NCBI RefSeq assembly: GCF_900107095.1
Contig: NZ_FNOR01000007.1
Location: 124,001 to 188,000, forward strand
Direction of reading: 5' to 3'
Origin: Collimonas sp. OK242
GTDB lineage: Bacteria; Pseudomonadota; Gammaproteobacteria; Burkholderiales; Burkholderiaceae_D
Length of the DNA stretch: 64,000 nt
Below, piece by piece: positions 31,891-60,766 of this stretch. The notes under the pieces were generated by a model. The model saw only the letters and a program-made list of their open reading frames with translations, was not told where the DNA came from and did no database searches. How positions within the stretch are numbered: the first letter of the stretch is position 1; each line of letters begins with the position of its first letter. The position numbers and the translations under genes are program-made.

Positions 31891-32694
31891 ATGCCCATAC
31901 AAGTTATCCACAACCGCCGCCTGTATCAACAAATCGCCGATCAGCTGCGTGACATGATTGATCGCGGCGAATACGGTCCTGGCGACAACCTGCCGCCCGA
32001 GCGCGAACTGGCGAAGCAATTCGGCGTTAGCCGTACCTCGGTGCGGGAAGCTTTGATTGCGCTGGAAGTGATCGGGATTGTCAGCGTCCGCGTCGGCAAC
32101 GGCGTGATGGTGTTGCCGCCGACGGAAGACACCAGCGAGCGCAACGGCGGCAGCCAGGCGCCTGCCTTGCAACTGGCGGCGCACCGTAGCGGCTGGGAAA
32201 TCGATCCCGAACTCGATCAGGAAATCCGTCTTGACCTGGATGATGAAATCCCGCCCTTCAAACTGCTGCAGGCAAGACGTCTGGTGGAGCCGGAGACCGC
32301 CGCCCTGGCGGCACTGAATGCCAGCGACGAACAATTGCGCAGCATAGCCGAGGCGTACGCCCGCAATGTCGAGGACAACCGCAGCGGCTCGCACACGCAT
32401 CCCGGCGACCGCCTGTTTCATATCCGTATCGCCGAAGCCAGCGGCAACCCGGCCTACCTGCTGCTGGTCAGCCATCTGCTGGGACGCAAATACGGCATGA
32501 TGTTTCAGCGCCTGCAAACCCTGTATAGCTCGAAGGACATGCCGAATCGTTCAGAGCATGAACATCAGTTGATCCTGGAAGCCCTGCAAGCGCGCGATGC
32601 GGTAGCGGCGCGCCGGGCGATGCGGGCGCATATGGATTCCGTGGTCAAGATTTTCTCTCGCTCGGTGCCGGAACAGGATATTCGGGCTCGCTGA
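31891..32694 (+). CDS. FadR-subfamily GntR regulator (FCD domain)
   Basis: A 267-residue regulator. An N-terminal GntR winged helix (LYQQIADQLRDMIDRGEYGPGDNLPPERELAKQFGVSRTSVREALIALEVIGIVSVRVGNGVMV, about residues 11-75) is followed by an FCD ligand-binding domain. The metal-coordinating pattern of FCD proteins is present (D/H in GDRLFHIRIAE, H in EHEHQLILEAL, H in AMRAHMDSV). Such proteins usually repress sugar-acid or deoxysugar catabolism genes. The divergent mutarotase gene is a likely target. Its stop lies one base from that of priA. Confidence 0.88.
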   Translation: MPIQVIHNRRLYQQIADQLRDMIDRGEYGPGDNLPPERELAKQFGVSRTSVREALIALEVIGIVSVRVGNGVMVLPPTEDTSERNGGSQAPALQLAAHRSGWEIDPELDQEIRLDLDDEIPPFKLLQARRLVEPETAALAALNASDEQLRSIAEAYARNVEDNRSGSHTHPGDRLFHIRIAEASGNPAYLLLVSHLLGRKYGMMFQRLQTLYSSKDMPNRSEHEHQLILEALQARDAVAARRAMRAHMDSVVKIFSRSVPEQDIRAR

Positions 32695-32695
32695 C

Positions 32696-34738
<2,043 letters not shown>

Positions 34739-34740
34739 GA

Positions 34741-34930
34741 ACTTAATGTAATTCCCGAGGAAATAAGCTAACTATCGGTTCCATAAGTGCTTTTAAGCAC
34801 TATCCACAAAATCTGTGGATAACTTTGTGGACAAGGTTGCGGAAACAACGTGAAAGCGCCTGTTTACGGCATGTTTTGGCTCTTGCTCAAATCAGCATCA
34901 ATGAAAATATAATTTAAAATCAACGACTTA
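34741..34930. repeat. Origin-like unit 1 with DnaA boxes
   Basis: Contains CTATCCACA (34800-34808, one mismatch to TTATCCACA), TGTGGATAA (34814-34822, exact complement of the box) and TGTGGACAA (34826-34834, one mismatch), then about 80 bp later the AT-rich block TTTAAAATCAA (34913-34923). Blocks ACTTAATGTA, AGGAAAT and CTAAC-ATCGGTT-CATAAG-GCTTTT precede the boxes. All blocks recur in unit 2 with a 455-456-bp offset. Confidence 0.8.
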
Positions 34931-35196
34931 GCTCATGCGCATCAGACACGTAACATTTTTCATGTAGTCAAAAAATAGCCTTGAAGAAACTCAAATATGT
35001 GCATAACTAAATTCGGCATCGGCAAGAACCGGCGCCGGCTCAGGCACCAAGAAGTAACATTGATGGACACAATCGAATCCATGGTCGTGCACCATCATGT
35101 TGCTTTTTTCAATCGGGTTAGCAAGTTTCGCACCGGAAAAATTAGCCCGATGTCAACGGTCAAAAATATCCGGGAATTCTGATTCCTAAGATTCTA
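34931..35196. other. Spacer between the two DnaA-box units
   Basis: About 270 bp without a supported gene. A 61-codon frame (34997-35182, plus) has no family resemblance and no good ribosome-binding site. AT-rich stretches are frequent. Confidence 0.4.
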
Positions 35197-35385
35197 CTTA
35201 ATGTAAAACATTAGGAAATGTCCTAACCATCGGTTTCATAAGCGCTTTTCAAATTATCCACAGTGTCTGTGGATAACTTTGTGGGTAACCTGCTCTTGAC
35301 AGGCTGCAGACGCATATTTGATGCGGGTTTCAATACATTGCCTAAACTAAAAGCAGAAAATAAATCATTTAAAATCAAATACTTA
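35197..35385. repeat. Origin-like unit 2 with DnaA boxes
   Basis: Second copy: TTATCCACA (35254-35262, exact), TGTGGATAA (35268-35276, exact complement) and TGTGGGTAA (35280-35288, one mismatch), then TTTAAAATCAA (35368-35378). The first two boxes form a perfect inverted repeat, TTATCCACAG with CTGTGGATAA, separated by TGT. Downstream (35386-35440) is a further strongly AT-rich stretch. Confidence 0.82.
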
Positions 35386-35567
35386 CAAAACGCACTCAAG
35401 TGGAAAATAATAAATATAGATATAAATAATTGCCGTGGTGCAGCAGTTTTTTTTTGTGCATAACTAGCGAGTGACAATCGCCTGATTGCTGCCGAATGTG
35501 TTATGGGTGACACTGCGTAACGACATTCGGCAGCAGATAGCAGGCATAGCCTCGCGCCGGTATCCGC

Positions 35568-36647
35568 CTATCCCCGCAACCTGCGGCTGATTTCATGGAC
35601 CGCATCGACCATGACGGCAACCGACTCCGGCGGCGTGAATTGCGAAATGCCGTGGCCCAGATTGAATACATGGCCGCTATCTGCTTGCGGCACGCCATAC
35701 GCGTTCAGCAAACGCTCGACTTCGCCACGGATCTGCTCCGGCTTGGCAAACAGCACCGCAGGATCCATGTTGCCCTGCAACGCAACCCGCTGGCCGACAC
35801 GGTCGCGCGCCTCGCTCAGATTGACGGTCCAGTCGAGGCCGACGGCGTCGGCGCCGATATCGGCAATCTGTTCCAGCCACAAGCCGCCGCCCTTGGTAAA
35901 TACGATCGCAGGAATCGGCACACCGTCTTTCTCGCGCTTCAGCTGGGAAACCACCTGCCGCATATAGTCCAGCGAAAATTCCTGGTAAGCGCCATCCGCC
36001 AGCGCCCCGCCCCATGAATCGAAAATCATCACGGCTTGCGCGCCGGCGTCGATCTGCGCGTTCAGGTAGGCCGCCACTGCCGCCGCATTGGTGCTGAGCA
36101 CGTGGTGCATCAGGTCCGGACGGTTGTACAACATCGTCTTGACGGTATGGAATTCGCGCGAACCTTCACCCTCGACCATGTAGCAAGCCAGGGTCCAGGG
36201 GCTGCCGGCAAAGCCGATCAGCGGCACTCGGCCGTTGAGTTCGGTACGGATTTGCGTGACCGCCTTGAAAACATAGTCCAGCTTGCCCAGATCGGGGCTT
36301 TGCAGCGCCATCACGTCTTTTTCATCGCGTAGCGGCCGTTGGAACTTGGGGCCTTCGCCATCGGCGAAATACAGGCCCAGTCCCATGGCGTCCGGCACGG
36401 TCAGGATGTCGGAAAACAGAATCGCGGCATCCAGCGGGAAACGGTCAAGCGGCTGCAGCGTGACTTCGGTAGCGTAATCGGGATTGGTCGCCAGCCCCAT
36501 GAAAGAGCCGGCGCGGCTGCGGGTTTTGCGATACTCGGGCAGATAGCGGCCGGCCTGGCGCATCAGCCACAGCGGCGTGTATTCGGTTGGCTGGCGCAAC
36601 AAGGCGCGTAGGAAGGTGTCGTTCTTGAGCGGGGCGAATTGGGACAT
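35568..36647 (-). CDS. hemE: Uroporphyrinogen III decarboxylase
   Basis: Heme-biosynthesis enzyme (359 residues) that converts uroporphyrinogen III to coproporphyrinogen III in the cytosol. The N-terminal signature [17 protein letters not shown] (about residues 25-41), second signature [16 protein letters not shown] and [13 protein letters not shown] are all present; the C-terminal [26 protein letters not shown] is typical. ATG 36647 fits the family start ([17 protein letters not shown]); a TTG three codons upstream is unlikely. It is the gene directly upstream of the DnaA-box region and priA, an order seen in related genomes. Confidence 0.96.
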
Positions 36648-36750
36648 GAGAGGCAATCTGAATGCATGTGATAACGCCCCATTATCTCATCCAAACCCAC
36701 GGCTGCGGCATCGGCCCTCGTATGATCGGTATGGCTGGCGTGCCTGGGTA

Positions 36751-60226: not shown

Positions 60227-60766
60227 TCACGCAGCCAGGGCAGCATGCAGTTCTTGCAGCTTGGCGCGCACCGATGTGTCGAGCACTTCATCGCCGACTA
60301 CTACGCGTACGCCGCCGATCAGCGAGTTATCCACAGTTACCGATGGGTTCAGCTTGCGGCCGAACTTCTTTTCCAGCGTGGCGGTCAAATCTTTCACTTG
60401 CGCTTCGGTCATTTCAAAAGCGCTGGTGATCTCGACATCCGCAGCGCCTTCTTGTGCGTTCTTCAGCACTTGAAATTGCTCGGCGATTTCCGGCAGTGCG
60501 ATCAAACGGCCGTTATCAACCAGCGTCGCGACGAAGTTCTTGACTTCGGCGGTGGCTGCTTGCGGCGATTTCAACAGCGCCAGGAACGTATCGGCGATTT
60601 GCTGATGCGTAAGGGCAGGATTGTGCGCCAGCGCCTTGACATCGGAATTGGCCGCTACCTGGCCCATCTCGACAACCAGATTCGCCCACGCAGCCAGGTC
60701 TTGCGACTTGGCTACACGGAACAATGCTTCTGCATAAGGACGAGCAATCGTTGCAAGTTCAGCCAT
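60227..60766 (-). CDS. atpH: ATP synthase F1 subunit delta
   Basis: Peripheral-stalk cap subunit, 179 residues. N-terminal helical domain ([32 protein letters not shown]) and C-terminal signature ([47 protein letters not shown]) are complete. Two bases separate it from the atpF stop, so translation is probably coupled. Confidence 0.96.

Follow-up and report, generated by a model that had tools for sequence, protein, structure and literature searches.

On the Escherichia coli chromosome, two DnaA-reactivating sequences, DARS1 in the bioD-uvrB and DARS2 in the rppH-mutH intergenic region, lie at origin-far positions, and the datA site lies nearer to the origin. DARS free ADP-DnaA of its ADP and raise the level of ATP-DnaA, whereas datA, together with integration host factor (IHF), promotes the hydrolysis of DnaA-bound ATP. 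Passages of PMC5742627 describe both DARS cores as sharing their spacing, with DnaA box I opposite to boxes II and III. The DARS2 core is presented as conserved among gammaproteobacteria related to E. coli in passages of PMC4245941, and passages of PMC5742627 also include beta or gamma species proximal to E. coli, so that DARS outside the gammaproteobacteria would not be wholly new. Here, we analyze a pair of DnaA-box units between hemE and priA of Collimonas sp. OK242 in a window of 64,000 nucleotides (C15:124001-188000, i.e., contig NZ_FNOR01000007.1 of a 4.98 Mb genome; coordinates with the prefix C15 are those of the contig, unprefixed ones those of the window). We consider it reasonably probable that each unit is a control element of DnaA that is assisted by IHF and belongs to the DARS type, present at this locus as an old tandem pair.

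The gap between hemE and priA is filled by two four-box units, of which unit 1 is proximal and unit 2 distal to priA. Both have the same order on the plus strand, namely box I (+), 14 bp, box II (-), 12 bp, box III (-), an IHF consensus site, and box IV (-). In unit 1, a box scan located box I (CTATCCACA, plus strand) at 34800-34808, box II (TTATCCACA, minus strand) at 34814-34822, and box III (TTGTCCACA, minus strand) at 34826-34834, followed 83 bp past box III by the IHF consensus site AATCAACGACTTA (34918-34930, plus strand) and, on the far side of that site, by box IV (TTATGCACA, minus strand, 34998-35006). Unit 2 comprises box I (TTATCCACA, plus strand, 35254-35262), box II (TTATCCACA, minus strand, 35268-35276), box III (TTACCCACA, minus strand, 35280-35288), the IHF consensus site AATCAAATACTTA (35373-35385, plus strand), here 84 bp past box III, and box IV (TTATGCACA, minus strand, 35455-35463). 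Half of the six boxes I-III of the two units have one mismatch. When up to 3 mismatches are allowed, the window has two occurrences of the full three-box pattern and 100 shuffles that preserve dinucleotides have none; of single boxes with at most 1 mismatch there are 18 in the window, compared to 7.25 expected. The informative feature is box orientation and spacing (+, 14, -, 12, -), beyond mere clustering.

An earlier sequence-only reading of this DNA had placed boxes I-III of both units correctly, had found the AT-rich block TTTAAAATCAA at 34913 and 35368, and had argued that the sites are no random pair, all of which stands. It counted three boxes per unit and overlooked the minus-strand box IV (TTATGCACA) at 34998 and 35455, which emerged from the box scan and an alignment. 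Its figure of 455 bp between the units holds for a flanking duplication (34741-34794, on the priA side of unit 1, with 80% identity to its counterpart beside unit 2 at 35196-35249), but the boxes themselves are offset by 454 bp. The AT-rich block, which it took for an unwinding element, contains the exact IHF consensus WATCAANNNNTTR (34918-34930 and 35373-35385) and is better read as an IHF site, given the match to the consensus and the spacing to the core, which in 118 of the 121 units of relatives and the window described below is 83-85 bp. A random pair of sites was rejected on two grounds, the triplet shuffles (0/100) and the IHF spacing (118/121 against 0.45 in shuffles).

The closest counterpart of the three-box core is that of the E. 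coli DARS sites. In stretches of E. coli K-12 picked by map position, with the names of boxes I, II, and III assigned here from position and pattern, the DARS1 boxes lie at L109:2108 (+), 2122 (-), and 2134 (-) and the DARS2 boxes at L107:2636 (+), 2650 (-), and 2662 (-); orientation and both intervals equal those of the window units, which therefore have the three-box core with box I opposite to boxes II and III at DARS1/DARS2 spacing. DARS2 likewise has an IHF-like site past box III with the same orientation; on that side, the predicted IHF sites of the window lie at a constrained distance (gap 83-84 bp). The E. coli site that we take as IHF-binding site (IBS) 2 lies 74 bp past box III, about one helical turn closer. 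DARS2 further has Fis sites (FBS2-3), whereas the window units have a far-side DnaA box that points as boxes II and III do, and the nearest perfect far-side box of DARS2 points the opposite way. The rppH-mutH neighborhood of DARS2 was not found at the window locus, where hemE and priA adjoin a tandem pair near a putative origin; conversely, the priA region of E. coli holds no core when searched with up to 10 mismatches. DARS1 has the three-box geometry and the adjoining of a DNA repair gene in common with the window locus; it differs in having no IHF consensus (up to 1 mismatch) within L109:1900-2600, while each window unit has one. As a separate observation, about 280 bp from the DARS2 core the rppH-mutH gap of E. 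coli K-12 contains a second DARS-spaced triplet (L107:2952/2966/2978), which differs from the consensus at 7 positions.

The part of each unit around the IHF site resembles datA instead. In datA, box 2, the IBS, and box 3 follow each other with both DnaA boxes in one direction, as do box IV, the IHF site, and box III in the window; the orientation of the IHF site is the same, and the gap between IBS and box 3 is 84 bp compared to 83-84 bp between IHF site and box III. The window unit therefore combines the layouts of both, the core being that of DARS and the box - IHF - box frame being datA-like. This frame is also the basis of a rival explanation, in which IHF bending joins DnaA on box IV to DnaA on box III and thereby promotes the hydrolysis of DnaA-bound ATP soon after the locus has been replicated. 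Three differences speak against such a datA-like element. The gap between box IV and the IHF site is 67-69 bp, whereas that between box 2 and IBS is 56 bp, making it 11-13 bp or about one helical turn longer. Box 7, an essential low-affinity box of datA, lies outside box 2 according to passages of PMC5742627, and we assign to it the datA sequence TTGTAAACA (3 mismatches, 12 bp outside box 2), whereas in neither unit does a box-like 9-mer (up to 4 mismatches) lie outside box IV at a distance of 9-30 bp. Finally, the window units add box II and an inverted box I beyond box III, while the essential datA boxes all point in one direction according to passages of the same paper; the gene neighbors differ as well. 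Two further points, the position of the priA site on the chromosome and the frequent loss of box I at priA (both below), favor the datA-like element, which we nevertheless regard as unlikely overall.

The units are conserved in relatives of the host. The HemE protein of the locus has its nearest named relatives in Collimonas (98, 96, and 92% identity), which makes the host a Collimonas-like member of the Oxalobacteraceae, and of 80 named loci with hemE, 79 have priA downstream (L042, with no priA on its contig, was left out), which together with the window gives 80 hemE-priA gaps. Counting cores with up to 9 mismatches of 27, these gaps contain 121 units, with two units in 42 gaps, one in 34, three in one, and none in three. 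Of the 121 units, 118 have an IHF consensus (up to 1 mismatch) at a core distance of 83-85 bp, compared to a mean of 0.45 in first-order shuffles, and an exact IHF site lies within 60-109 bp in 85 of them (0.37 in shuffles). In an alignment of the last 330 bp of the gaps, boxes II, III, and IV and the IHF block are conserved while the spacers vary, and box I is moderately conserved (about 60-70% of rows). The pattern of conserved boxes with drifting flanks, which the sequence-only reading had named as a sign of function, was thus found in these gaps. Several Janthinobacterium and Massilia loci have a tandem pair in which one unit lacks box I. Passive titration, in which DnaA boxes near the origin merely soak up DnaA, would fit the clustering of DnaA boxes on contig C15, and titration by origin-proximal boxes is argued for E. 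coli in passages of PMC12371093; yet it requires no fixed orientation, spacing, or IHF site, exactly the features that are conserved, and we regard it as very improbable.

A tree of 118 units (L087 with its three units was left out) groups proximal and distal units largely by position, so that the duplication predates the four Collimonas-like genomes, and a recent duplication of the units was ruled out on this ground. The proximal and distal labels need 6 and 11 changes on the tree compared to about 35 in shuffles, and the proximal and the distal Collimonas units each form a well-supported group of four. The duplication is probably also older than the Janthinobacterium-Massilia-Duganella group as judged from the tree, in which the larger proximal group is moderately and the distal group weakly supported and 33 forks are open, so that single origins are not established.

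Beyond the family, we searched for the core pattern TATCCACN6TGTGGATAAN3TGTG with up to 2 mismatches and used the reversed pattern as control. The core was found in 264 of 300 genomes from the order of the host (control 0) and in 156 of 185 genomes drawn from its class (control 0), two of which, both matching, belong to the order. A free-spacing search gave matches in 134 of 200 genomes, compared to 4 matches of the reversed control; among the 150 matches listed, which include overlapping readings of one site, 126 (in 89 genomes) have the DARS gaps (5,3), one of the 325 combinations allowed. Two gene contexts of the core recur, hemE-priA and exbB-xseA. In an order sample of 31 genomes from 30 families, which includes the window genome and one congener, a core was allowed up to 7 mismatches. 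One genome of this sample, G009, lacks a priA locus and another, G006, an xseA match, and the xseA match of G008 is weak (28% identity). Of the 30 priA loci, 11 have a core upstream, each time on the other strand than the gene (shuffles 1/600); of the 30 xseA loci, 24 have one upstream, each time on the same strand as the gene (shuffles 0/600). A core at one or both genes is present in 24 of the 31 genomes. In the class draw, where priA loci of 23 of 27 genomes were used (three had no PriA match and the window genome was left out), 10 of the 23 have the core (shuffles 0/460). Among class loci found by the pattern alone, 8 of 28 adjoin priA, and the neighboring open reading frames of the 20 others look diverse when read by eye.

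The same composite of core, IHF site, and far-side box was traced at these addresses using boxes II and III as anchor and a window of 80-89 bp for the IHF site. In the order sample, 18 of 20 priA anchors and 18 of 30 xseA anchors have an IHF site there, and in the class 8 of 12 priA loci and 13 of 26 pattern loci. Among the IHF-bearing order anchors, far-side boxes at 150-169 bp that are oriented as boxes II and III number 17 at priA and 13 at xseA, compared to 0 and 0 in the opposite orientation. Box I is lost in 8 of the 18 IHF-bearing priA anchors (6-8 mismatches) and in 2 of the 18 IHF-bearing xseA anchors (7-8 mismatches), one more of the latter having 5 mismatches. In the window genome itself, the gap between xseA and an exbB/tolQ-like gene (named by eye, with no NCBIfam match at 1e-20) has degenerate cores at C8:52745 and C8:52958, and a third, weaker copy near C8:52630 was seen by eye. 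As read by eye, these two to three degenerate cores stand in tandem before xseA (C8:52620-53021), and about 20 bp past each of them stands an IHF-like block, AAG(T/C)CC(T/A)TGATT, at a shorter distance to its core than in the priA units; 5 IHF matches at 15-19 bp on that strand occur among the 29 cores of the order xseA set.

Both addresses bear on whether the locus could simply be a DnaA-controlled promoter of priA with a role in transcriptional regulation only. In favor of such a promoter, 61 bp separate unit 1 from the start of priA downstream, and several families share the placement of cores in front of this gene. A promoter is nevertheless improbable because the distance from core to priA drifts from 7 to 259 bp (nearest unit of two-unit loci) while the distance from core to IHF site stays fixed, the same composite stands at xseA in the opposite orientation, and the second unit is 515 bp upstream of priA. 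No sigma-70-like promoter was found on the priA strand in 34700-35600, although this is a weak test.

The chromosomal position of the two sites was read from contigs that start at dnaA (G004 and G015, with another start, and G093, with the site at neither gene, were not used). Expressed as a fraction of the half-contig, priA or its element lies at 0.03 in G022 (which has no full priA core), 0.04 in G007, 0.18 in G020, and 0.23 in G049, and xseA at 0.53 in G022, 0.55 in G007, 0.68 in G020, 0.79 in G098, and 0.83 in G205, with the contigs of G020 and G049 not being whole genomes. The priA site thus falls into the origin-nearer class, as datA does in E. coli, and the xseA site into the origin-far class, as the DARS sites do there.

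Clustered DnaA boxes and AT-rich DNA would also be expected of a second or alternative replication origin, and hemE neighbors the origin in some alphaproteobacteria. Like a chromosomal oriC, the window locus has DnaA boxes together with an IHF site. Unlike one, it shows no turn in GC skew, since between 105 and 215 kb of C15 each 5-kb step has a negative skew, at the locus (159 kb) as well as at an oriC-like locus (202 kb), before the profile flattens; the low points of the cumulative skew lie near 215 kb (-3289) and near 270 kb (-3301, marginally the lower). The oriC-like locus at C15:201.5-202.1 kb, 42 kb from the units and close to a skew turn, has DnaA boxes and tandem repeats resembling the DnaA-trio, an origin motif, whereas on reading the window units no AGTAGTAGT-type run was seen. 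In the Collimonas-like genome G007 (one contig of 5,186,898 bp with dnaA at its start), the priA pair (5,094,450 and 5,094,915) and the oriC-like tandem locus are 43 kb apart, the xseA site is at 1,427,784, and the skew turns near 5,147 kb, rises slightly, and has its minimum beyond dnaA, some 25 kb into the contig, again with no turn at the priA pair. The skew profile alone does not fix which other place is the origin. With no skew turn at the locus, an oriC-like locus elsewhere, no DnaA-trio-like repeats visible in the units, and the same type of core at a second locus far from the origin, we rejected a second origin as highly improbable. Of the earlier proposal of an origin-like or DnaA-control locus, the first part finds no support in the GC-skew check that it had itself suggested, while the DARS1/DARS2 geometry of the core backs the second.

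Two loci on C15 deserve description in their own right. The putative oriC (C15:201501-202111) is a tandem duplicate of about 391 bp that sits upstream of an aspartate carbamoyltransferase gene; its AT-rich copies end in AAATAGTAGTAGTAGTTAAC, which is DnaA-trio-like, and each has DnaA boxes, with the counterpart of the locus in G007 at G007:C1:5138129-5138720. Between parB and a parA-like gene, 60 bp past the right edge of the window (C15:188060-188190), about ten DnaA-box-like repeats were seen by eye at 11-12 bp spacing (TGTGGATAACCT TGTTGATAACCC TGTTTATACCC and so on), and a similar diverged array is present in G007 near 5123150.

As a working model of an IHF-assisted element of the DARS type, DnaA would load on the three-box core with box I facing boxes II and III, and IHF, binding 83-84 bp from the core, would introduce a bend; this bend, DnaA on the far-side box IV, or both, possibly through looping, would then act on the oligomer at the core. 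The nucleotide state of DnaA would change as a result, most likely by release of ADP followed by reloading with ATP, which would promote the next initiation. Recharging is the direction that we cautiously favor from the sequence, because the core is a DARS core and because the genome encodes Hda (TIGR03420, 227 bits compared to a cut-off of 194.8), the protein of regulatory inactivation of DnaA (RIDA), whose presence implies that ADP-DnaA in need of recharging should be made. Discharging keeps its smaller share of likelihood because frame and position of the priA site are those of datA.

Several points weigh against this DARS-type element. The frame of box IV, IHF site, and box III, with its near-identical gap (83-84 compared to 84 bp), points equally to a datA-like discharging site, and the site taken as IBS2 of E. 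coli DARS2 is closer to its core (gap 74). E. coli DARS2 requires Fis sites besides IHF (passages of PMC4585315 and PMC4245941), whereas the alignment of the gaps shows no conserved block from the IHF site to box IV and beyond other than box IV itself, no scan having been aimed at Fis sites. Passages of PMC5742627 place the E. coli DARS between oriC and terC and report that DARS2 disturbs timing when moved near oriC, and the window locus is only 42-43 kb from the putative oriC. The loss of box I in 8 of 18 IHF-bearing priA anchors means that the full DARS core is not universally kept at priA; full cores (up to 7 mismatches) are missing at 19 of 30 priA and 6 of 30 xseA loci of the order sample, 7 of its 31 genomes have neither, and 12 of 30 xseA anchors have no IHF site at 80-89 bp.

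The flanking genes of the locus, which the sequence-only reading had named correctly, were confirmed by NCBIfam as priA, encoding the replication restart helicase, on the downstream side (32696-34738, minus strand; TIGR00595 with 542 bits, NF004067 with 950.6 bits) and hemE, encoding uroporphyrinogen decarboxylase, on the upstream side (35568-36656, minus strand; TIGR01464 with 425 bits). Just downstream of hemE, a perfect 13-bp inverted repeat (TGCTGCCGAATGT / ACATTCGGCAGCA) with a loop of 23 nt spans 35487-35535. An RNA element at the locus was considered and rejected, with all Rfam matches under their gathering scores (the best, a histone stem-loop, at 26.7 compared to 34 bits). Isolated perfect TTATCCACA boxes occur elsewhere in the window at 31904 (at the start of the open reading frame at 31891), at 33069 (within priA), and at 60327.

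Among the titles, abstract openings, and passages of open-access papers covered by our searches, we met neither the priA and xseA addresses nor the composite of four boxes and IHF site, the tandem pair, or the likeness to datA. What is known of DARS and datA comes mainly from E. coli. A fixed grammar of DnaA boxes and IHF site at two recurrent addresses, priA and xseA, provides ready test sites in many bacteria, and the elements at these genes yield a concrete hypothesis for the relationship between DARS and datA. In a tentative and rather doubtful extension, DARS and datA might both descend from a single ancestral DnaA-IHF switch, located at priA and xseA in beta- and gammaproteobacteria and built from a three-box core, an IHF site at 83-85 bp, and a far-side box, in which the inverted box I would set the direction such that its presence gives recharging and its absence discharging. 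If this were true, tandem pairs with one unit lacking box I, as at the Janthinobacterium and Massilia loci, would work as an on/off pair built into the locus; in Collimonas, where both units have box I, the pair would be a doubled "on" site near the origin.
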